Source: Tateyamaria omphalii
GTDB lineage: Bacteria > Pseudomonadota > Alphaproteobacteria > Rhodobacterales > Rhodobacteraceae
Direction of reading: 5' to 3'
Length of the DNA stretch: 64,000 nt
Assembly: GCF_014651375.1 (NCBI RefSeq)
Contig: NZ_BMWT01000001.1
Coordinates: 372,001 to 436,000 of the forward strand
A model generated the notes under the pieces. That model worked only from the letters and a program-made list of their open reading frames with translations. It made no database searches and was not told the origin of the DNA. Numbering within the stretch: the stretch's first letter is position 1; every line of letters starts with the position of its first letter. This document shows, piece after piece, positions 18,067 to 56,466 of this stretch. The position numbers were made by a program, and so were the translations under genes.

Positions 18067-18555
18067 ATGGCCGAAGAACAAGCCACACCACCCGCCGCAC
18101 CGCAAATGCGCGTGCTGGGCCAATACATTCGCGACATGTCATTTGAGAATATCGTGTCGCAAAAGGGCGCAGCGCCGGACGTGCAGCCCGATGTACAGGT
18201 GCAAGTCAATCTGGACGCTAAGAAACGCGGTCAGGAGAACCAGTACGAAAGCGCGATCAAGCTGAACGTGACTTCAAAGGCAAAGGAAGGCGACACTGTC
18301 CTTTTTGTTCTTGAAATCGACTATGTCGGGATGTTCCACATTGAAAATGTGCCGGAAGATCAGCTTCATCCGTTCCTTCTAATTGAATGCCCCCGGATGA
18401 TATTTCCGTTCCTGCGTCGGGTCGTCAGTGACATCACACGCGACGGTGGCTTCCCACCCCTCAACCTGGAAAACATCGATTTCGTATCGCTGTATCGGAA
18501 CGAAATCGCGCGCCGCCAGAAAGAAGCAGCGCCGGCTGAGCAGCCAATCAACTGA
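18067..18555 (+). CDS. secB: Protein-export chaperone SecB
   Basis: This is a 162-residue cytosolic tetrameric chaperone that keeps preproteins unfolded and hands them to SecA. The family core is clear: QYIRDMSFENIVS, VQVQVNLDAKKRG, VLFVLEIDYVGMFHI, and LLIECPRMIFPFLRRVV. The C-terminal tail is short and lacks the zinc-site partner usually seen only on SecA. A GGAGAAAGAG stretch precedes the ATG. The gene is closed by a strong hairpin shared with the convergent dnaQ. Confidence 0.97.
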   Translation: MAEEQATPPAAPQMRVLGQYIRDMSFENIVSQKGAAPDVQPDVQVQVNLDAKKRGQENQYESAIKLNVTSKAKEGDTVLFVLEIDYVGMFHIENVPEDQLHPFLLIECPRMIFPFLRRVVSDITRDGGFPPLNLENIDFVSLYRNEIARRQKEAAPAEQPIN

Positions 18556-18573
18556 TATCTTTGAAACTATGGC

Positions 18574-18601
18574 AAGGCCCGGTCTTCGTACCGGGCCTTT
18601 T
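18574..18601 (+). terminator. Intrinsic terminator after secB
   Basis: AAGGCCCGGT and ACCGGGCCTT form a perfect 10-base stem with loop CTTCGT, followed by TTTTCATTTT. The tail runs into the stop codon of dnaQ on the other strand. Seen from the minus strand there is no T run, so it mainly serves secB. Confidence 0.88.
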
Positions 18602-19287
18602 CATTTTGGCCACAGGGCGTCATCGCCCAGCTTGGCCACAAACCCCGCATGTGCCTCTTGCTCTTTGGCAGTAATGCGACTTGGCAAAGCTCGCGGGCGA
18701 GGTGGCAGTGTCCAGCTTTCAATCTCAACCGCGCTTGGGCCAGCTGAATTGTTTGTTGAAAGTGCAAAGTCGGGCTGACGTCCACCAATCAGTTCAAGAT
18801 AGACTTCCGCCAGAATTTCGCTGTCGAGCAAGGCGCCGTGCAAGGTTCGAGCTGAATTGTCGATCCCGAAGCGGCGGCACAGTGCATCCAGTGAAGCCGG
18901 TGAACCGGGAAAACGGCGCCGCGCAATGTCGAGGGTGTCGATCGCACGATCAAAGGGGATCTGAGGTAAACCCATCCACTTCAGCTCGGCATTCAGAAAC
19001 TTCATGTCGAAGGCAGCGTTGTGGATCACCAACTTGGCATCGCCAACAAAGTCCAGAAACTTTTGGCCTAGCTCAGCAAACTTTGGCTTTCCACGCAGAA
19101 AATCATCGCCCAGCCCGTGCACTTCAAATGCTTCCTGAGGCATCGAGCGTTCTGGATCGATGTACTCGTGGAACACGCTATCGGTTGGAACGTGACCGAG
19201 CAATTCAATCGCCCCAATTTCGACAATTCGGTCTCCGCTTTCCGGGTCGAACCCAGTCGTTTCCGTGTCGAGAACGATTTCACGCAT
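18601..19287 (-). CDS. dnaQ: DNA polymerase III epsilon subunit (3'-5' exonuclease)
   Basis: This 228-residue protein is the proofreading exonuclease of the replicase. The ExoI motif LDTETTGFDP is at residues 6-15, ExoII is VIHNAAFDMKFLN, and ExoIII is RTLHGALLDSEILAEVY, giving the DEDDh active site. A short C-terminal tail would contact the polymerase alpha subunit. The start overlaps the coaE stop by 8 bases, so it is the last gene of the maf-aroE-coaE-dnaQ run moving away from the candidate origin. Confidence 0.97.
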   Translation of the reverse strand: MREIVLDTETTGFDPESGDRIVEIGAIELLGHVPTDSVFHEYIDPERSMPQEAFEVHGLGDDFLRGKPKFAELGQKFLDFVGDAKLVIHNAAFDMKFLNAELKWMGLPQIPFDRAIDTLDIARRRFPGSPASLDALCRRFGIDNSARTLHGALLDSEILAEVYLELIGGRQPDFALSTNNSAGPSAVEIESWTLPPRPRALPSRITAKEQEAHAGFVAKLGDDALWPK

Positions 19288-19873
19288 GTGACAATCCGCT
19301 TTTGATCTGCTGAACTACAGAATGAACCTGAGTACGGGCATGTTCAACCGTGTCAGTTTCGATCACGAAGTCGGCCCGGTCACATTTTTCAGCACTTGGC
19401 ATCTGCTTTGCCAGGATTGTTTGAAATTGGGCCTCGGTCATCGTTCCACGTGCAAGGACACGTGCCCTTTGCGTTTCCGCATCGACATGAACAACCGCAA
19501 CGGCATCCATCGCCGCTTCGCCGCCTGTTTCAAAAAGAAGCGGGATGTCAAAGACAACGATATCTGGGTCTGTCGCCGCTACAAAACGCGCTCGATCATC
19601 CGCGACCAGTGGGTGCACAATGGCTTCAATTCGGGCCAGAGCGTCTGCGTTCTTCGAGATGATGTCACGCAATGCATCGCGAGAGAGGGCTCCGCCCACG
19701 ACAGCGCTTGGGAATATTTTTCCAATCGGGCCGACCGCTGCGCCACTTTGGCCGTATAGACGATGCACAGCTGCATCCGCGTCCCAAACTGCGCACCCTT
19801 CGTCCTTGAACATCTGGGCTGTTGTGGATTTGCCCATACCAATGGAGCCGGTCAGCCCAAGTTTAAACGTCAT
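19280..19873 (-). CDS. coaE: Dephospho-CoA kinase
   Basis: This 197-residue P-loop kinase performs the last step of coenzyme A synthesis, phosphorylating the ribose of dephospho-CoA. The Walker A segment GLTGSIGMGKSTT is at residues 6-18, the DADAAVHRLY segment binds substrate, and VFDIPLLFETGGE is the family motif. The start at 19873 overlaps the aroE stop by 4 bases; an in-frame upstream ATG would add residues encoded inside aroE and is not needed. Confidence 0.96.
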   Translation of the reverse strand: MTFKLGLTGSIGMGKSTTAQMFKDEGCAVWDADAAVHRLYGQSGAAVGPIGKIFPSAVVGGALSRDALRDIISKNADALARIEAIVHPLVADDRARFVAATDPDIVVFDIPLLFETGGEAAMDAVAVVHVDAETQRARVLARGTMTEAQFQTILAKQMPSAEKCDRADFVIETDTVEHARTQVHSVVQQIKSGLSHA

Positions 19874-20700
19874 CTCAATGCCGCCGCGCGGGTTGCGCTG
19901 TCCACGACAGGCCGATGCCCAAACCATCGCTCGAAAGCGGGTACTGCCTGATGCAGCAGCATACCTAGCCCGTCAACGGTCACACAGCCTGCTGCCTCGG
20001 CGGCGGCAAGTAGGTCAGTCTTTAGAGGTGTGTAGACAAGATCAGTGACGAGGGTGCCGCGCCGCAAACCGTCCAAGGGGATGCGCATTGCCGGTTTACC
20101 GATCATGCCAAGTGACGTTGTGTTGGTCACAAGGGCAGAGTCTTCGAGAATATTCCCGGCTTGAACCCAATCAACAACCGACACCTTCTTTCCGAAATCG
20201 TCAGCCAACTTTTCCGCCCGAACGCGGGTACGGTTGGTCAGTAGAATTTCTGGAACGCCAGCATCGAGAAGCGATGCAATGACAGCACGCGCTGCACCTC
20301 CAGCGCCCAGCACCGTTGCCGGACCTGCATGAGGATGCCAGTTCGGCGCGCCCGCTTTCAGGTTCTCGATGAAACCATACCCATCCGTGTTGTCCGCATG
20401 AATCTGGCCATCCTTGCGAAAGATCAGAGTGTTTGCGGCCCCAATCAGCGTTGCGCGATCCGTGACAAGATCGGCAATTTCCAATGCGGCCTCTTTGTGG
20501 GGAATGGTAATGTTCACCCCGACAAAACCGGCTTTGGGCAAGGTCCGCAAAACTGTCTCCAGATCCTGTGCCGACACATCCATGGGGATGTAGTCACCGC
20601 GCAACCCAAGCGTCTTGAGCCAGTGCCGATGCAATTGCGGTGACTTGGAATGTGAAATGGGGGATCCGATGACCCCCGCCAAAGGAATTTTATCGCTCAT
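19870..20700 (-). CDS. aroE: Shikimate dehydrogenase
   Basis: This 276-residue NADPH-dependent enzyme converts 3-dehydroshikimate to shikimate in aromatic amino acid synthesis. The substrate site SPISHSKSPQLH, the catalytic lysine in NITIPHKEAA, the aspartate in NTDGYGF and the cofactor loop LGAGGAARAV are all present. It is the second gene of the maf-aroE-coaE-dnaQ unit, 15 bases after maf. The same order lies beside the Caulobacter origin. Confidence 0.97.
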   Translation of the reverse strand: MSDKIPLAGVIGSPISHSKSPQLHRHWLKTLGLRGDYIPMDVSAQDLETVLRTLPKAGFVGVNITIPHKEAALEIADLVTDRATLIGAANTLIFRKDGQIHADNTDGYGFIENLKAGAPNWHPHAGPATVLGAGGAARAVIASLLDAGVPEILLTNRTRVRAEKLADDFGKKVSVVDWVQAGNILEDSALVTNTTSLGMIGKPAMRIPLDGLRRGTLVTDLVYTPLKTDLLAAAEAAGCVTVDGLGMLLHQAVPAFERWFGHRPVVDSATRAAALR

Positions 20701-20715
20701 CCCGCATGCCTTTGA

Positions 20716-21315
20716 TTATCCGTCGATCACGCCGCGCAGCGTCAGGAATGCCAGAAGCTCCAGCAATGGCATCCCAAGGACATTGAAATAATCCCCTTCG
20801 ATGCTGTGGAACAGGCGCACTCCCTCTGCCTCTAGTTGGTATGCGCCAACTGAGTGACGAATGTCATCCCAATTCCGGTCAATGTATCCATCAAGATACG
20901 CATCCGACACATTTCGCATCCGCAGACGGACCTGTCCCACGTGGCGCCAGATGGGTTTACCTTCATGATAAATGATGGCGGCTGATAGCAGCATGTGGCG
21001 CTGCCCACGCATGGCACGCAGTTGTTCGGCAGCGTCCATTGGGTCAATCGGCTTCGACAGAAGATCGTTGTCGAAAGAAAGAACCTGATCGCATCCAATG
21101 ATCATAGCGCCCGGCACCTTGTCAGCCACCTTGCGCGCCTTCATTTCGGCCAGCGCATCGGCAATGTCACGCGGTGAGGCTTCTTCGGCGATCAAGGCTT
21201 CTTTAACCGCTTCTTCATCAATTCGAGGCACCATGACTTCGAATTCTATCCCTGCGTTTTGCAGCAGCTGGGCCCGAATGCTGGAACCCGAAGCAAGAAC
21301 GATGGGGGTGTTCAT
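20716..21315 (-). CDS. maf: Maf-like nucleotide pyrophosphatase
   Basis: This is a 199-residue Maf/HAM1-superfamily protein. Members hydrolyse dTTP, UTP or modified pyrimidine triphosphates and may remove damaged nucleotides. The N-terminal motif ASGSSIRAQLL, DEEAVKEAL, the loop GCDQVLSF and the late GDYFNVLGMPL are typical. The start at 21315 has AAGGA 8 bases upstream; a start seven codons earlier is possible but weaker. The start codon region coincides with a DnaA-box-like sequence at the edge of the candidate origin. Confidence 0.95.
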   Translation of the reverse strand: MNTPIVLASGSSIRAQLLQNAGIEFEVMVPRIDEEAVKEALIAEEASPRDIADALAEMKARKVADKVPGAMIIGCDQVLSFDNDLLSKPIDPMDAAEQLRAMRGQRHMLLSAAIIYHEGKPIWRHVGQVRLRMRNVSDAYLDGYIDRNWDDIRHSVGAYQLEAEGVRLFHSIEGDYFNVLGMPLLELLAFLTLRGVIDG

Positions 21316-21724
21316 GTGGATATCCTTGTGTGTCACGCCTTGTGAACTGAGGGATCAAACACGTGAAAGCAAGCCGGATGTCCGGTTCATGTGATGCACC
21401 TCGCGTCACGAGCCGGTTTCACCGTGATCCTTCCCAAGTGCGAAAGAACAAATACTGTGTTGAGTGCAACAAATGTTGTTCGGTGTTACCCACAGATTAG
21501 TCCACTCCTTAAATTGGTTTATTGAAATCTAAATATTTGTTTTAAAACGATTTTTATAATAGGTTGGCAGCTTTACATATCTGGGGAAAAACCTGTCACG
21601 CTGTGCACAACCCTTTGGGAAAAACAGTAATCCACAGAAATCGGTCACCCTACAAAATCATCATCCTTTTTCTTTCTTATATTTATTTATAAGGGTGGAT
21701 CGGAACAGTAAGGGCCCAACTATC
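21316..21724. other. Candidate chromosomal replication origin (oriC)
   Basis: This 409-base stretch has no gene and is the only gap over 300 bases. It holds an AT-rich block at 21508-21563 and another at 21651-21694. DnaA-box-like nonamers are TGTGGATAT (21315-21323), TTACCCACA (21486-21494), TAATCCACA (21628-21636), each one base off TTATCCACA or its complement, and a weaker TGTGCACAA (21602-21610). A half-like CtrA site, TTAA with TATT seven bases on, is at 21509-21523. Flanking genes match the Caulobacter origin region on the left and the rho-mnmE-mnmG-parAB side on the right; hemE is missing. The call rests on sequence and synteny, not on a skew computation. Confidence 0.72.
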
Positions 21725-22171
21725 ATGGATATCTTGATAACCTTCTATCCGTGGATCAAGGCATTCCATATCATGTCGGTGATCGCTTGGATGGCAGCCT
21801 TGTTCTATCTACCCCGTCTGTATGTCTACCATTCAGAAAGTGTCGGGCTGCAGGGCGATACACATGCCCTCTTCCAAACCATGGAATACAAGCTGCTTAA
21901 GGTGATCATGAACCCTGCCATGATCGCAACATGGGTGTTCGGTCTTCTCCTTGCCTTGATCCCTGGTGTGGTCGATTGGAGTGCAGTGTGGCCCTGGACC
22001 AAACTGTTTGGGATTCTGGCCATGTCTGGTTTCCACGGTTGGCTGGCTGCGCAACGCAAGGCATTTGTTGCGGGTGGCCCAATCAAAAGCGGACGACAGT
22101 ACCGAATGATGAATGAAGTGCCGACGCTTCTCATGGTTCTGATTGTTCTGTCGGTGGTTGTGAAATTCTGA
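21725..22171 (+). CDS. hemJ: Protoporphyrinogen oxidase HemJ
   Basis: This 148-residue membrane protein is of the HemJ type that oxidises protoporphyrinogen IX to protoporphyrin IX. The first helix carries KAFHIMSVIAWMAALFYLPRL with the conserved histidine at residue 15, and MEYKLLKVIMNPAMI follows; four membrane segments are expected. The start at 21725 is preceded by AAGGG; a GTG ten codons earlier is less likely. The gene faces right out of the candidate origin. Ferrochelatase and HemW are encoded elsewhere in the window. Confidence 0.92.
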   Translation: MDILITFYPWIKAFHIMSVIAWMAALFYLPRLYVYHSESVGLQGDTHALFQTMEYKLLKVIMNPAMIATWVFGLLLALIPGVVDWSAVWPWTKLFGILAMSGFHGWLAAQRKAFVAGGPIKSGRQYRMMNEVPTLLMVLIVLSVVVKF

Positions 22172-22176
22172 AACCG

Positions 22177-22205
22177 TTGACTTAGGGCGCAACAGCCCCT
22201 ATCTG
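22177..22205 (+). promoter_or_regulatory. Possible promoter of rho
   Basis: TTGACT (22177-22182) and TATCTG (22200-22205) are separated by 17 bases, just after the hemJ stop. The -10 match is poor. The following leader, up to the rho ATG at 22295, contains small inverted repeats such as CCCCG-TC-CGGGG near 22216 and CCGCTT-AAGCGG near 22263. Rho genes are often autoregulated through their leaders, but this is inference. Confidence 0.35.
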
Positions 22206-22294
22206 CGATGTCGCACCCCGTCCGGGGACCGCATACAGCTTTTACAATTGACTGGACGCGCACCGCTTGAACCAAGCGGGCCAAGAGTATTCCC

Positions 22295-23566
22295 ATGACC
22301 GCAGAACGCCTCGCCCTTGCTGAACTCAAGGCGAAAAGCCCCAAAGACCTCCTTGCCATGGCAGAGGAGCTGGAAATCGAAAACGCCTCGACTATGCGGA
22401 AGGGCGAGATGATGTTCCAGATCTTGCGCGAACGCGCGGATGAGGGATGGGAGATTTCCGGCGATGGTGTGCTGGAGGTCCTGCAAGACGGTTTTGGTTT
22501 CCTGCGCTCGCCTGAGGCGAACTATCTGCCGGGTCCTGATGACATCTATGTGTCGCCAGAAATGATCCGCCAGTATTCGTTGAGGACTGGTGATACGATC
22601 GAGGGCGTGATCAAGGCTCCGGACGATACGGAACGTTACTTTGCGCTGACAAACGCGACGAGGATCAACTTTGAAGAACCGGAGAAGGCCAAGCACAAGA
22701 TTGCCTTTGACAACCTGACGCCGCTCTATCCGGACGAGCGCCTCAAGATGGAGCTTGATGATCCGACCACCAAAGATCGCTCGGCTCGTATCATTGATCT
22801 GGTCGTACCGATCGGGAAGGGGCAACGTTCGCTGATTACCGCGCCTCCACGGACGGGTAAGACCGTACTGTTGCAGAACATCGCGGCGAGCATCGAAAAG
22901 AACCACCCAGAATGCTACCTGATTGTGTTGCTGATCGATGAACGTCCCGAAGAGGTGACGGACATGCAGCGTTCCGTGAAAGGCGAAGTTATTTCGTCCA
23001 CATTTGATGAACCTGCGACACGCCACGTAGCCGTGTCGGAAATGGTCATCGAAAAAGCAAAGCGATTGGTCGAGCACAAACGAGATGTTGTTATTCTGCT
23101 CGATTCAATCACAAGACTTGGTAGGGCGTTCAACACAGTTGTTCCTTCGTCGGGTAAAGTTCTGACCGGTGGTGTAGATGCTAACGCATTGCAAAGGCCC
23201 AAGCGGTTCTTTGGTGCGGCGCGGAATATCGAAGAGGGCGGATCGTTGACGATCATCGCAACGGCCCTGATTGATACAGGTAGCCGGATGGACGAAGTCA
23301 TCTTTGAAGAGTTCAAGGGTACTGGTAACTCTGAAATTATTCTGGATCGCAAGATTGCGGATAAACGCGTGTTCCCAGCGATTGACATCCTCAAGTCCGG
23401 TACGCGGAAAGAAGACCTGTTGGTCGACAAAGTGGATTTGGCAAAAACCTTTGTTCTGCGCCGTATCCTGAACCCGATGGGAACAACGGATGCGATCGAA
23501 TTCCTGATCTCGAAACTCAAGCAGACCAAGACGAATAGCGAATTCTTCGATTCCATGAACACCTGA
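22295..23566 (+). CDS. rho: Transcription termination factor Rho
   Basis: This 423-residue hexameric RNA helicase ends transcription at unstructured C-rich RNA. The N-terminal helical Rho-N part is followed by the RNA-binding domain with [15 protein letters not shown]. The ATPase has Walker [12 protein letters not shown], Walker [12 protein letters not shown], the [13 protein letters not shown] segment, the Q-loop region [11 protein letters not shown] and the R-loop region [13 protein letters not shown]. The N-terminus starts [17 protein letters not shown] lack of hairpins between many convergent gene pairs in this window would make Rho important locally. Confidence 0.98.
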
Positions 23567-23588
23567 TCTGCCAGGCGGAGGTAAGGGG

Positions 23589-24872
23589 ATGGATACAGTC
23601 TTTGCCCTTGCCACGGCGCAGGGTCGTGCGGGCGTTGCCGTCGTCCGTATTTCAGGGTGCGAAGCCAAGTCTTGCGCGGAAAAACTGTGCGGATCACTTC
23701 CAGAAGCCCGTAGGGCTGCCACGCGAATTCTACGCGATGACGCGGGCGGAATGCTCGATCACGCATTGATCCTCGTTTTTGATGGCCCGGAAAGCTTTAC
23801 GGGTGAGGATGTGGTCGAGTTTCATCTACACGGAAGCATTGCCGTGATCTCGGCTGTTTTGCGTGAACTAGCCAAAAGTAACGCTCGAATGGCTGAACCA
23901 GGCGAATTCACGCGTCGGGCGCTCGAAAACAACAAGATGGATCTTGCGCAAGTCGAGGGTCTTGGTGATCTGATCGAGGCGGAAACTGAAGCACAACGAC
24001 AACAAGCCTTGCGCACCGTATCGGGTGAGTTGGGTCAACGGATTGAAAGTTGGCGCAGCAAGTTGATCCGGGCCGCGGCGTTGATCGAGGTAACAATAGA
24101 CTTTGCCGATGGAGAAGTTCCGGTAGACGTTACACCGGAGGTTCAAAGCCTTTTGTCGGACGTGATGCAGGACGTTTCGGATCAGTTGAGTGGGTTTAAC
24201 TCGGCGGAAAGAATTCGGACTGGTTTTGAAGTTGCGATCGTTGGTGCGCCAAATGCAGGAAAGTCTACTCTGCTAAATGCCCTTGCTCGTCGTGATGCTG
24301 CTATCACTTCCGAAGTTGCAGGTACGACAAGAGATATCATTGAAGTCCGCATGGACCTTGGTGGACTGCCTGTCACTTTGCTGGATACAGCAGGGCTGCG
24401 GGAGTCTGATGATCAGATTGAGGCAGAAGGGGTCTCCAGAGCGATTTCGCGCGCGAATTCTGCGCAGTTGCGTATCTTTCTTGTGGAACCGGGAGAGCGT
24501 TTAAGTGTTCCGGTTGTGGAAGGTGACGTCGTTCTTGCCCCGAAGGCAGATGAAAGAAACGACAACGTGCCTGCAATTTCAGGCCTTACTGGACAGGGCG
24601 TTGACCAACTTGTTTCGGATATAACCGCCGCTTTGTATGAGCGAACACAAGATGCCGGACTGCTCACGCACGAACGGCACAGAGCGTCAATGTCGAACGC
24701 TTCATCGACTTTATCGTCTGCGTCAAACATGGTTGGTGCGGGGCCAGAGCACTATGATATTGCGGCAGAGGAAATCAGGGCTGCGATTCGATCTCTGGAG
24801 GCAGTTGTCGGCCGGGTAGATGTAGAAAACCTGCTAGACGAAATATTCTCCAGTTTTTGCCTGGGTAAGTAA
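23589..24872 (+). CDS. mnmE: tRNA modification GTPase MnmE
   Basis: This 427-residue GTPase works with MnmG to add aminomethyl or carboxymethylaminomethyl groups at wobble uridine 34. The N-terminal formyl-folate-binding domain is intact ([18 protein letters not shown]), and the C-terminus ends FCLGK with the conserved cysteine. In the G domain G1 is GAPNAGKS (219-226), G2 TTRD (246-249) and G3 DTAG (266-269). The expected G4 motif NKxD reads PKAD (318-321), an asparagine-to-proline change. The protein is a little shorter than the usual 450 residues. GGAGG precedes the ATG. Confidence 0.96.
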
Positions 24873-24876
24873 TGGA

Positions 24877-26745
24877 GTGTTTCACGTGAAACATTTTGAT
24901 GTGGTTGTTATCGGCGGTGGACATGCGGGGACAGAGGCTGCCCATGCCTCTGCAAGAATGGGCGCTTCGACTGCGTTGATCACCATGAAAGTCTCGGGAA
25001 TTGGTGTGATGTCATGCAACCCAGCGATTGGCGGCCTGGGGAAAGGTCACCTTGTTCGTGAAATTGATGCAATGGATGGCGTTATGGGGCGTGTTGCTGA
25101 CGCCTCAGGGATTCAGTTTCGTTTATTGAATCGTCGTAAAGGTCCGGCAGTGCAAGGCCCACGCACACAGTCTGATCGCGCTGTGTATCAGGACACCATG
25201 CTTCGTTTGATGCAGACAACCCAAAACCTTACAATCATAGAAGGTGAGGTTGTTGATCTGAAAATGAAGGGGGATGTTGTTGAAGGGGTTTGTTTGGCCG
25301 ACGGATCGGAAGTTTCAGCAACTACCGTGATCCTGACAACAGGAACATTCCTGCGCGGTACGATCCACATTGGTGACACTTCGTACGACGGCGGTCGAAT
25401 GGGTGATGATGCCTCCGTTCCGCTAGCTGACCGGATTGATGGCTTTGATCTGCCGACCGGTCGATTGAAAACGGGTACGCCGCCACGACTGGATTCGCGA
25501 ACGATCAACTGGGAAGGGCTGGATCAACAAGGCGCGGATGATGATCCTTCGCTCTTTTCTTTCATGTCAGAGCGAGCGCCACTGCGCCAGATTTCCTGTG
25601 GTATAACACACACCAACACCAAAACGCATGATATCATACAGAAGAACCTCCACAGATCTGCCATGTACGGTGGCCATATCGACGGCGTCGGCCCAAGGTA
25701 CTGTCCGTCCATCGAAGACAAGGTAGTGCGTTTTGCCGACAAGGACTCACACCAGGTGTTTCTTGAGCCTGAGGGGCTAAACGACCATACAATTTACCCA
25801 AACGGAATCTCTACGTCTTTGCCGTCTGAGATACAGGCTGAGTATGTTCATTCGATGACTGGGCTTGAGAATGCAAAAATTCTTCAGCCAGGATATGCGA
25901 TTGAATATGACTATGTTGATCCCAGGGCGTTGAATGCGGATTTGTCGGTCCGTGATGTGCCGGGCTTGTTTTTGGCCGGGCAAATCAACGGAACCACCGG
26001 ATATGAGGAGGCAGCCGCTCAGGGCTTGGTTGCTGGCCTTAATGCAGTGAGACGAGTGAGGGGCGAAGCGCCTGTATATTTCCGCCGCGACCAAAGTTAC
26101 ATCGGTGTGATGATTGACGACCTTACGACGCGCGGCGTTGCCGAACCATATAGAATGTTCACGTCTCGGGCTGAGTTTCGACTTTCTCTTCGCGCTGACA
26201 ATGCCGACCAACGCTTGACTGAGTTTGGTCGGGATCTGGGATGCGTTTCGGATGAGCGCATGTCAGTGTTCGCCCGCAAGAATGAGAGGCTTTCTGCTGC
26301 CAAGGAATGTTTATGCGCGTCGGAATTCACGCCAAAGGAAATCGCCGCACAAGGCATTCGCATCAATCAGGATGGTACCAAGCGCACGCCGTTCCAAGTG
26401 TTGGCATTTCCGGATGTGACATTCGAACAGGTTGGGGGCCTTGTTCCTGAAGCGCTGCAGTTTTCTAAAGAAATCCAGGAACAAATCGCTCGTGATGCGC
26501 TCTATGCAAACTACATCGCTCGTCAGCGGAAAGATGTTGAGAAACTGCGTAAGGATGAATTGTTGCAAATCCCGGCAGATTTCAAATACTCGGAGATTTC
26601 GGGTCTGTCCTCTGAGTTGCAAAGCAAGCTCAATCGTGTTCGACCCTCAGACTTGGCGCAAGCGGCGCGTATTGATGGTATGACACCCGCCGCGCTCGCG
26701 CTTGTTCTTGGCCGTATCAGGTATCTGGAAAAGAAGCTTGCATGA
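24877..26745 (+). CDS. mnmG: tRNA uridine-5-carboxymethylaminomethyl modification enzyme MnmG (GidA)
   Basis: This 622-residue FAD enzyme is the partner of MnmE in wobble uridine modification. The FAD-binding loop [14 protein letters not shown] is near residues 11-24; [23 protein letters not shown] and [10 protein letters not shown] are the GidA signatures, and the C-terminal helical domain carries [12 protein letters not shown]. The start is a GTG at 24877, four bases after the mnmE stop, giving [10 protein letters not shown]; a second GTG at 24886 is an alternative. The first codons are formed by a parS palindrome. The stop overlaps rsmG by 4 bases. Confidence 0.96.
24878..24893. other. parS centromere site 1
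   Basis: TGTTTCACGTGAAACA is a perfect 16-base palindrome and matches the consensus ParB-binding site parS. It begins one base into the GTG start of mnmG and encodes the N-terminal residues FHVKH. parA and parB lie 2.5 to 4.2 kb downstream. Confidence 0.95.
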
Positions 26746-27353
26746 TGGACCTTCCGGATTGGTGGGAAACGAGTGTTTCACGTGAAACATTCGACAAACT
26801 TGAAACCTATGCCGATCTGATCCGAAAGTGGACGCCAAGAATCAATTTGGTATCGAAGTCGACACTTTCCGATTTGGAGACCCGTCATATCTGGGACTCC
26901 GCTCAGGTGTACATTCCACGATCCGGACTTTGGGCGGATCTGGGAAGCGGTGGGGGGCTTCCCGGGGTTGTTGTTGCAATTCTTGCACAGGGAAATGGAC
27001 TAAGCACATCCTTCACGCTGGTCGAAAGCGATCAAAGAAAGTCGACTTTCTTGCGCACTTGCGCACGTGAACTTGAATTGCCCATAAAAATTATGGCGTG
27101 CCGCATTGAGGCGGTTGAGGCGCTGAATGCTCAAACCATTTCCGCACGAGCGCTGGCGCCTTTGGATTCGCTTTTGTCTTTGGCCTTACCACACCTCACT
27201 CAGGACGGAATTTGCCTCTTCCAGAAGGGTGCGCAATGGCAGGATGAAGTTGTTGCTGCAAAGCAAAACTGGCGGTTTTCTTATGAAGCGATGCCAAGTA
27301 AAACAAATGCCGAAGCAGTTGTCCTCAAAATCAAGGATATTTCGCGTGTCTGA
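26742..27353 (+). CDS. rsmG: 16S rRNA (guanine-527-N7) methyltransferase RsmG (GidB)
   Basis: This 203-residue enzyme methylates G527 of 16S rRNA using S-adenosylmethionine; loss gives low-level streptomycin resistance. The cofactor loop is [14 protein letters not shown], followed by [14 protein letters not shown] and the late [13 protein letters not shown]. The start overlaps the mnmG stop (ATGA). The N-terminus contains SVSRETF, which is the translation of a parS site. The end overlaps the parA GTG by 8 bases. Confidence 0.97.
26774..26789. other. parS centromere site 2
   Basis: This is a second perfect copy of TGTTTCACGTGAAACA, 1896 bases from the first and inside codons 11-16 of rsmG, where it encodes part of SVSRET. 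The same sequence in the same place is a familiar feature of alphaproteobacterial rsmG genes. parA begins 557 bases downstream. Confidence 0.95.
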
Positions 27354-28155
27354 TCCGACGCGCCCGTCCGGGCCCAAGATTATTTCCGTCGCCAATCAAA
27401 AAGGGGGGGTGGGCAAAACAACCACCGCCATAAACTTGGCCGCGGCACTTGTTGAGATTGGGAATCGTGTGCTTGTCGTTGATCTCGACCCGCAAGGCAA
27501 CGCATCTACCGGTCTTGGGATCGAAATGGAGGATCGTGAGCATACGACATACGATCTTCTATTGGATGACATCCCACTAAAAGACGTCATTCTTGCCACG
27601 GACATCGATGATCTTGCCATTGTTCCAGCCACGGTCGACCTGAGCTCAGCAGATATTGAGTTGATTTCGAACGAGAAGCGCAGCTTTCTCTTGCATGATG
27701 CGTTACGGCAGACGGCCATGGACGCGTATGGGTTTGACTTCATCCTGATTGATTGCCCGCCGTCTCTGAATCTTTTGACTGTCAATGCAATGATTGCGTC
27801 GGATTCTGTCCTTGTTCCGCTTCAGAGTGAATTCTTTGCTTTGGAGGGCTTATCGCAACTGATGCTAACGGTTCGAGAAGTGCGGCAAACGGGCAATCCG
27901 AATCTACGGATCGAAGGCGTCGTGCTGACAATGCATGATGCGCGGAACAACCTTTCGCAGCAGGTGGAACAAGATGCTCGGGACAATCTGGGCGATATCG
28001 TTTTCAAGACGCGTATCCCGCGCAATGTCCGTGTGAGTGAGGCACCGTCCTTTGCGATGCCGGTTTTGTCTTATGACGCCACCTCAAAAGGGGCGGTAGC
28101 CTACCGTGACCTGGCTAAAGAGCTGGTCGCCAATAACGCAGCAGTGGGAGCCTGA
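27346..28155 (+). CDS. parA: Chromosome-partitioning ATPase ParA
   Basis: This 269-residue Walker-type ATPase moves ParB-bound origins. The deviant Walker A KGGVGKTT is at residues 19-26 with the signature lysine, Walker A' is VLVVDLDPQGNAS, and Walker B is FILIDCPPSLNLL. The start is a GTG at 27346, eight bases inside rsmG, with AAGGA upstream; a longer frame from 27127 is only the overlap with rsmG. It is a chromosomal (Ib-like short) ParA without an N-terminal DNA-binding extension. Confidence 0.96.
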   Translation: MSDPTRPSGPKIISVANQKGGVGKTTTAINLAAALVEIGNRVLVVDLDPQGNASTGLGIEMEDREHTTYDLLLDDIPLKDVILATDIDDLAIVPATVDLSSADIELISNEKRSFLLHDALRQTAMDAYGFDFILIDCPPSLNLLTVNAMIASDSVLVPLQSEFFALEGLSQLMLTVREVRQTGNPNLRIEGVVLTMHDARNNLSQQVEQDARDNLGDIVFKTRIPRNVRVSEAPSFAMPVLSYDATSKGAVAYRDLAKELVANNAAVGA

Positions 28156-28156
28156 C

Positions 28157-29050
28157 ATGGCAAGCAACGACAAGAAACGTGGTTTGGGGCGCGGGCTTTC
28201 TGCATTGATGGCAGATGTTGCGGAACCTGCTTCAACAAGCACCACATCCGGTGTCGCAGGCGAGCAACGCATCCCGATTGAAAAGATCAGGCCAAACCCT
28301 GACCAGCCACGGCGTCAATTTGATGTCGGGCCATTGGAGGATCTTGTAGCGTCGATCAAGGAAAAGGGTGTCCTCCAGCCCTTGATTGTCCGGCCAGCCG
28401 GGGACGAGTACGAAATCGTCGCTGGTGAGAGGCGCTGGCGAGCGGCGCAACAAGCACAGCTTCATGACCTTCCTGTTCTGGTGCGTGATTTCTCGGATAC
28501 AGAAGTCCTGGAAGTGGCGATCATCGAAAACATCCAGCGTGCGGACTTAAACCCGATCGAAGAAGCAGCTGGGTACAAGCAACTGATGGACCGTTTCGGC
28601 CATACACAAGAGAAGATGGCCGAGGCGTTGGGCAAATCGCGCAGCCACATTGCGAACCTTTTGCGTCTGCTGCAGCTTCCCGATGACATTCAAACCTTCG
28701 TCGTTGAGGGGAAGTTAAGTGCTGGACATGCGCGAGCGTTGATCACTGCAGATGATCCCAGTGCGCTTGCGAGAAAAGTGATCGCCGGAGAGCTTTCCGT
28801 TCGGGCAACCGAAGCACTGGTTAAGAAAGCATCGGAAGATGTGGGCGATAACATCTTCAAAGGATCACCCAAACCCAAGGCACCAGCCAAAGATGCTGAC
28901 ACACGCGCGCTTGAAGATGATCTTTCTGCAGCTACAGGTGTCAAAGTGTCTCTGACGCACAAGCCGGATGGTGAATCCGGCACGCTGACACTGCAATACG
29001 AGAGTTTGGACCAGCTTGACGACCTGTGCCGACGACTGAGTTCCAGCTAG
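28157..29050 (+). CDS. parB: Chromosome-partitioning protein ParB
   Basis: This 297-residue CTPase clamp loads and spreads on parS. The N-terminal GLGRGLSAL segment (residues 9-17) contacts ParA or other partners, the CTP-binding motif GERRWRAA is at 90-97, and the helix-turn-helix lies about 150-176 (MAEALGKSRSHIANLLRL). A C-terminal dimerisation domain follows a proline-rich linker. The gene starts two bases after parA. It overlaps the convergent hemW by a shared CTAG. Confidence 0.97.
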   Translation: MASNDKKRGLGRGLSALMADVAEPASTSTTSGVAGEQRIPIEKIRPNPDQPRRQFDVGPLEDLVASIKEKGVLQPLIVRPAGDEYEIVAGERRWRAAQQAQLHDLPVLVRDFSDTEVLEVAIIENIQRADLNPIEEAAGYKQLMDRFGHTQEKMAEALGKSRSHIANLLRLLQLPDDIQTFVVEGKLSAGHARALITADDPSALARKVIAGELSVRATEALVKKASEDVGDNIFKGSPKPKAPAKDADTRALEDDLSAATGVKVSLTHKPDGESGTLTLQYESLDQLDDLCRRLSSS

Positions 29051-56078: not shown

Positions 56079-56216
56079 CGACATTGGAGCGGATCGGCGG
56101 CTAAGTCCCTGAAACATGGTTTGCAATCGCCCTGTATTGCTGTTTACAGAGACTCACGAGGTAAGTCTTGGGTGCGTTCCAACGATAATTGTTGGTGCGC
56201 GTAACTGGAGGTTAAT

Positions 56217-56396
56217 ATGAAAAAACTCGTTCTCGCTGCTGCTTTGACTGCTGCTGCTTCGACCGCATTCGCCGGCGCTCCTGCTGAGCCGATCATCGAA
56301 GCACCCGTAATCGTTGAAGAGACGCAAAGCTCCTCAGGCGGGATCATCCTGCCCCTGCTTCTGCTGATCGTCGTAGCGGCTGCTGTTTCCGACTAA
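56217..56396 (+). CDS. 59-residue exported membrane peptide of unknown function
   Basis: This short gene begins MKKLVLAAALTAAAS, a signal peptide with likely cleavage at AFA, followed by an acidic linker (APAEPIIEAPVIVEE) and a C-terminal membrane segment (GGIILPLLLLIVVAAA). A GGAGG ribosome-binding site lies 5 bases before the ATG, and a strong terminator follows 20 bases after the TAA. These signals make it a real, separately transcribed gene rather than a chance frame. I do not recognise a named family; it lies between an L,D-transpeptidase and convergent hemH. Confidence 0.88.
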   Translation: MKKLVLAAALTAAASTAFAGAPAEPIIEAPVIVEETQSSSGGIILPLLLLIVVAAAVSD

Positions 56397-56415
56397 TTGC
56401 CGGACTAACATCATT

Positions 56416-56448
56416 AAAAAGGCGGCTCGTTCTGAGCCGCCTTTTTTT
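56416..56448. terminator. Bidirectional terminator between the 59-residue peptide gene and hemH
   Basis: AAAAAGGCGGCTC and GAGCCGCCTTTTT form a 13-base stem with loop GTTCT. The plus strand ends in seven T and the minus strand in five, so it serves both convergent genes. It is the strongest hairpin in the window. Confidence 0.93.
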
Positions 56449-56466
56449 GTTTGAAGGGAAGCGGAC

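Follow-up and report, generated by a model that had tools for sequence, protein, structure and literature searches.

The window analysed here, a 64-kb stretch of a Tateyamaria draft genome (G000:C1:372001-436000; 4.75 Mb in 22 contigs), harbors a candidate oriC in the gap between the divergent genes maf and hemJ. The genes around the gap were assigned by profile as follows.

18067 to 20700: secB (plus strand), dnaQ, coaE and aroE (each minus strand)
20716 to 21315, minus strand: maf, left neighbour of the gap, divergent from hemJ
21313 to 21724: candidate oriC region, bounded by the start codons of maf and hemJ
21725 to 22171, plus strand: hemJ, right neighbour of the gap (TIGR00701, 138.1 bits, barely over the cut-off of 138.05)
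22295 to 27353, plus strand: rho, mnmE, mnmG and rsmG
27352 to 29050, plus strand: a parA-like gene, whose start codon is unsettled and which was scanned from 27352, and parB

The gene order of the original prediction is borne out by profile matches over the cut-off for secB, dnaQ, coaE, aroE, maf, hemJ, rho, mnmE and parB, with mnmG and rsmG confirmed likewise. The parAB pair stands in part: parB exceeds its cut-off, but the parA gene falls below its own and is hence termed only parA-like. The maf side and the rho-mnmE-mnmG-rsmG-parAB side, which we take to be the neighbours of the Caulobacter origin, are both present at the Tateyamaria gap. When hemJ is compared with its relatives, 17 Tateyamaria-labelled loci top the list at 78-94% identity, which places the genome with Tateyamaria in the Roseobacter group. 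A search of positions 20000-24000 against Rfam gave zero matches and no RNA element, and a tRNA search of the window found none.

The gap itself (21316-21724) is real and AT-rich as predicted, with an AT content of 58% compared with 44% across the window. Its description as the sole gene-free stretch of more than 300 bases is nearly correct, but a 388-bp stretch at 56079-56466 is also devoid of ORFs of at least 100 aa. This second stretch contains a 59-aa ORF (56217-56396) with a signal-peptide-like start.

Four DnaA-box-like nonamers, three of them one base off the consensus TTATCCACA, had been predicted in the gap. All four are present, together with a fifth nonamer carrying two mismatches. 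Conservation values are mean column conservation in an 81-sequence alignment of the gap, in which the baseline mean over the 299 other gap positions is 0.48.

21315-21323, minus strand: DnaA box 1, ATATCCACA, one mismatch, touching the maf start codon; conservation 0.82
21486-21494, plus strand: DnaA box 2, TTACCCACA, one mismatch; conservation 0.66
21582-21590, minus strand: weak site, TTTTCCCCA, two mismatches, containing TCCCCA; conservation 0.40, i.e., not conserved
21602-21610, minus strand: weak DnaA box 3, TTGTGCACA, two mismatches; conservation 0.73
21628-21636, plus strand: DnaA box 4, TAATCCACA, one mismatch, proximal to the unwinding segment; conservation 0.83

The perfect consensus is absent from the gap and occurs 29 times genome-wide, compared with 26 times for a backwards control. 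Sites with at most one mismatch number nine in the window, with 8.1 expected from shuffling; single boxes are therefore uninformative, and it is their clustering that counts. The gap is the only 420-bp stretch with at least three boxes in the 616 kb scanned of its own 4.75-Mb genome (71 boxes in total).

The clustering extends to related genomes. The sample comprised 80 related hemJ loci, all of which were used, and the 420 bp before hemJ was scored in each. Near-consensus boxes are enriched 32-fold in this segment, with a density of 7.26/kb (244 boxes in 33.6 kb) compared with 0.22/kb in the remainder of the same loci (169 boxes in 755.7 kb). At least one box is found in 78 of the 80 loci and at least three in 53, where first-order resampling predicts 0.12 per locus, although the loci are mutually related and the counts are not independent; two loci have no box in the scored segment. 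The boxes are also found next to other right-hand neighbours. When hemE is in this position, the gap holds one to three boxes (L205-L210), and in three loci lacking hemJ (L212, L213, and L215), three or four boxes persist between maf and rho. The box at the start of maf is retained in L213 and L215 and lies ~12 bp away in L212; L214 was left out of the gap comparison because its sequence stops short of the gap. One locus in the sample (L028), on a contig labelled as a Nitrospira sp. MAG, has a hemJ of the Roseobacter kind (71% identity) preceded by the same boxes, and this contig is probably mis-binned.

By nearest-neighbour energy, the two least stable 50-mers of the entire window both fall within the gap, starting at 21512 and 21644, and on this measure an AT-rich, easily melted element lies beside the boxes. 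The second 50-mer belongs to a right-hand module that begins at box 4.

21512 to 21561: AT-rich island, which has the lowest stability of all 50-mers in the window; conservation 0.49, i.e., not conserved
21637 to 21649, plus strand: 13-nt spacer with a GC-rich right end
21650 to 21665, plus strand: CTACAAAATCATCATC, candidate DnaA-trio-like single-strand binding track; conservation 0.82
21666 to 21692: AT-rich run, probable unwinding element, within the second least stable 50-mer; conservation 0.70

The core of the origin is likely to consist of TAATCCACA, 13 nt, CTAC..ATCATC, and the AT-rich run. The exact TAATCCACA is present no farther than 160 bp from hemJ in 51 of the 80 loci (29 are without it), and the CTAC..ATCATC pattern as written is found in 45 (35 are without it). 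In all 39 loci that have both motifs, the spacing between them is 13 nt. The track is off consensus past its first CTA and continues as ATC repeats. Outside the family, CTACTA precedes hemE at a similar distance in five of 20 outgroup stretches (L222, L225, L230, L231, and L233) and is missing from the other 15; in some stretches, a second box-like sequence was seen by eye to precede it. These occurrences suggest that the Tateyamaria track is homologous to the outgroup CTACTA and has drifted to ATC repeats.

Exactly two perfect 16-base parS sites are found in the 4.75-Mb draft, both to the right of the gap.

24878 to 24893: perfect parS located at the 5′ end of mnmG, 3.2 kb right of the gap
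26774 to 26789: perfect parS within the 5′ portion of rsmG, 5.1 kb right of the gap

In a sample of 150 genomes of the family (Rhodobacteraceae, judging from the labels of the relatives), 144 contain a perfect 15-base parS, and its backwards control occurs in none.

GC skew was calculated at fourfold sites in sampled 20-kb bins, averaging the two gene orientations. In the chromosomes of two of three relatives, its sign changes near the hemJ locus and again about opposite. In Roseobacter GAI101 (3.79-Mb contig), successive bins over 2.62-2.68 Mb have values of −0.033, +0.048, and +0.105, with hemJ at 2.663 Mb; the sign switches in the bin immediately to the left of hemJ. The opposite change lies at 0.62-0.80 Mb (the antipode, assuming that the contig is a complete circle, is at 0.765 Mb), and off-sign bins occur at 2.00, 2.76, and 3.3 Mb. 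In the relative G106 (3.49 Mb), the skew passes from −0.097 to +0.013 at hemJ (2.456 Mb) and changes again at 0.62-0.80 Mb (antipode 0.713 Mb), with off-sign bins at 1.2, 1.6, and 2.62 Mb. The third relative, G147 (4.16 Mb), has an irregular skew without a clear change at its hemJ. A further Tateyamaria genome (G002) flips somewhere within 1.09-1.32 Mb, which is compatible with its hemJ at 1.220 Mb but not sharp. On the contig studied here, where the locus lies at 393 kb, the skew is mostly negative below 340 kb, small and of mixed sign between 340 and 476 kb, and mostly positive beyond, with off-sign bins at 120 and 560 kb; this change is broad but compatible with an origin at the locus.

Together, the conserved box array, the two unstable segments, the parS pair, the skew reversal in two relatives, and the conserved position support the originally predicted oriC, and the gap is predicted with high confidence to be the bidirectional, DnaA-dependent origin of the main chromosome. 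In the proposed mechanism, DnaA would bind the boxes at 21315, 21486, 21602, and 21628, the last of which is proximal to the unwinding element. A DnaA filament could then grow from the box at 21628 over the 13-nt spacer and onto the CTAC..ATCATC single strand, with melting of the AT-rich run at 21666-21692 and perhaps also of the island at 21512-21561. Melting would be followed by helicase loading and the departure of two forks in opposite directions, while ParB bound to parS 3-5 kb to the right would segregate the new origins first.

The position of the gap between divergently transcribed genes, with box 1 touching the maf start codon, is also what would be expected of a divergent promoter for maf and hemJ at which DnaA regulates transcription and not replication. 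However, the boxes stay in the gap whether hemE, hemJ, or rho follows on the right, and because they outlive these changes, a role in transcription only is very unlikely. The fixed spacing of the CTAC..ATCATC motif points in the same direction, and low stability, a parS pair, and a skew reversal are not features of a promoter.

The two remaining alternatives concern the replicon as a whole, and both are improbable in the extreme. The single dnaA of the genome lies at C1:346336, ~46 kb left of the gap, and the origin could be placed there, with the gap as a secondary DnaA-binding locus. In the skew of the contig, the strongly negative values end near 340 kb, not far from dnaA, and since the change is broad, this skew alone does not exclude the dnaA region. 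However, no box with at most one mismatch is present in dnaA or in the 1.5 kb preceding it, and the perfect parS sites are near hemJ. In GAI101, moreover, dnaA (2.780 Mb) is 118 kb from hemJ on a mostly positive arm, although the bin preceding it is −0.037. An origin at dnaA was rejected on the basis of the box-free dnaA region and the GAI101 skew. The draft state of the assembly (22 contigs, replicon not closed) would also accommodate a large extrachromosomal replicon with a plasmid-type origin, but the only dnaA match of the genome is on the same contig, and the locus is conserved among relatives, in one of them on a 3.79-Mb contig. The gap is almost certainly where this marine bacterium begins to replicate its chromosome, an origin ordinary for its bacterial class except that the usual neighbour, hemE, has been relocated.

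The original prediction had hemE absent, which is true of the locus but not of the genome, as hemE is found at C1:1001860, 608 kb from the gap. The position that hemJ holds to the right of the gap is occupied by hemE in many outgroup gaps. Of 115 genomes sampled across the class, 95 match both genes. In 15 of these, hemE lies no more than 250 bp upstream of hemJ in the same orientation, and in 69 more it lies within 3 kb (84 of 95, computed from coordinates). Two of the 11 exceptions are the genome studied here and G170, both from this family. Within the family, the hemE-hemJ pair, judged by eye, is kept in six of 150 genomes (G010, G022, G053, G078, G085, and G091). The description of the locus as a modified alphaproteobacterial origin is to be qualified: the lack of hemE at this position is the rule in the family and is not peculiar to this genome. 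In G082, no hemJ was found, and hemE lies between rho and a five-box cluster. G106 has two hemE matches over the family cut-off (G106:C1:1885234 and 2597775), neither of which is beside hemJ.

Turnover also affects other neighbours. Among the 150 family genomes, hemJ is clear in ~123, weak in 17 (e.g., G014 and G016), and without a match in 10 (e.g., G027, G051, and G066); in G092 and G113, hemJ begins right at the edge of its contig, and its upstream neighbour cannot be judged. Some members of the family thus appear to have lost or replaced hemJ at the maf-rho locus. The outgroup stretches, in which maf was found in 18 of 20, point to another such gene: in outgroup L231 and L239, as well as in family member L206, maf is separated from the gap by a gene of the kinase/pyrophosphorylase family PF03618. 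The PF03618 profile has no match in the genome studied here, and this gene is a second outgroup-origin neighbour that is also gone. It is present in eight of 150 family genomes, and in all eight its match is separated by roughly 410-480 bp from that of hemE or hemJ. Both hemE and PF03618 are at the origin in G010, G053, and G091; PF03618 is there without hemE in G007, G020, G056, G071, and G136; hemE is there without PF03618 in G022, G078, and G085; and neither is there in, e.g., the present genome. Since all four combinations occur, at least one of the two genes must have changed repeatedly, barring transfer.

These observations can be joined into a single reading, which is offered tentatively and has somewhat less than an even chance of being correct as a whole. 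Tateyamaria, Roseobacter, Sulfitobacter, and their allies would share a lineage-specific module of TAATCCACA, 13 nt, CTAC..ATCATC, and an AT-rich run. In this module, ATC repeats would stand in for canonical DnaA-trios, and the second unwinding-proximal box would have decayed, while hemE and the PF03618 gene would have been shed from the origin more than once. The novelties are small, namely neighbour turnover and an off-consensus triplet track, in an origin otherwise ordinary in kind. A partial literature search, which was not aimed at the module, did not find the neighbour turnover or the fixed 13-nt module, nor a paper combining hemE, Rhodobacterales, and oriC; a paper on a Tateyamaria origin was not among the best-ranked matches, although a lower-ranked one is possible.

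The prediction pins the origin to a 0.4-kb gap of a draft genome and provides coordinates for a testable unwinding module. It also bears on the use of hemE as a marker for alphaproteobacterial origins, which misses the origin in most of the sampled family genomes. As usable landmarks, many of them offer the DnaA box at the beginning of maf, the two parS sites, and the TAATCCACA-13-CTAC module.

Origins in Rhodobacteraceae have been predicted by Ori-Finder, clearly in 101 strains and not in 8, with nearness to parAB, a local GC minimum, and a GC-disparity minimum as guides to curation (Kopejtka et al. 2019, PMC6699656). The Tateyamaria gap resembles these in being near parAB and in a local GC minimum. 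The portions of that survey available to us name parAB as the only flanking genes and give neither box positions nor an unwinding module, and hemE is not mentioned in its main text. Marker-frequency profiles of Cereibacter sphaeroides and Paracoccus chromosomes have been published (PMC13342612). In alphaproteobacteria, the hemE cluster serves as a recognised marker of the origin, and hemE-linked origins such as that of Sphingopyxis share with the Tateyamaria gap a conserved neighbourhood and a gap containing boxes and an unwinding element (PMC4741004). They differ in that hemE and the PF03618 gene are found at outgroup gaps but not here; because hemE is 608 kb away, the locus is classified as oriC and not as the hemE-linked subtype.

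The gap shares with the Caulobacter crescentus Cori boxes one base off the E. coli consensus and weak TCCCCA sites, the latter being the Caulobacter W-box consensus (PMC4285127). Unlike Cori, it has no adjacent hemE, no TTAA-N7-TTAA CtrA site (only two isolated TTAA are present), and no GANTC (CcrM) site, and Caulobacter-like control is not apparent from its sequence. Control through GANTC was rejected for the relatives as well, which are near background (0.98 per gap compared with 0.79 per 420 bp elsewhere). A CtrA-like TTAA-N6/7-TTAA site is found anywhere in the gap in 20 of 80 relatives, compared with 3.4% expected from first-order resampling. In 13 of the 80, it is located 377-393 bp before hemJ, beside DnaA box 1 (L027, L030, L031, L037, L043, L044, L048, L054, L063, L074, L075, L077, and L084). 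The window has no such site. In some members of the family, CtrA may still act at the origin.

The closest parallel for the right-hand module is the basal unwinding system of B. subtilis and H. pylori, which comprises a box, a GC-rich spacer, a triplet track, and an AT-rich run (PMC8235120, PMC10225481). In this orientation, the DnaA-trio reads 5′-CTA-3′ with a strictly conserved middle T (PMC8235120). Tateyamaria differs in having one CTA followed by ATC repeats and in that box 4 is not clearly followed by a second box ahead of the track. Its elements are arranged in the same order, and the distance from box to track is fixed. By analogy with the latter (PMC8235120), CTACAAAATCATCATC is a candidate track for DnaA on the single strand.
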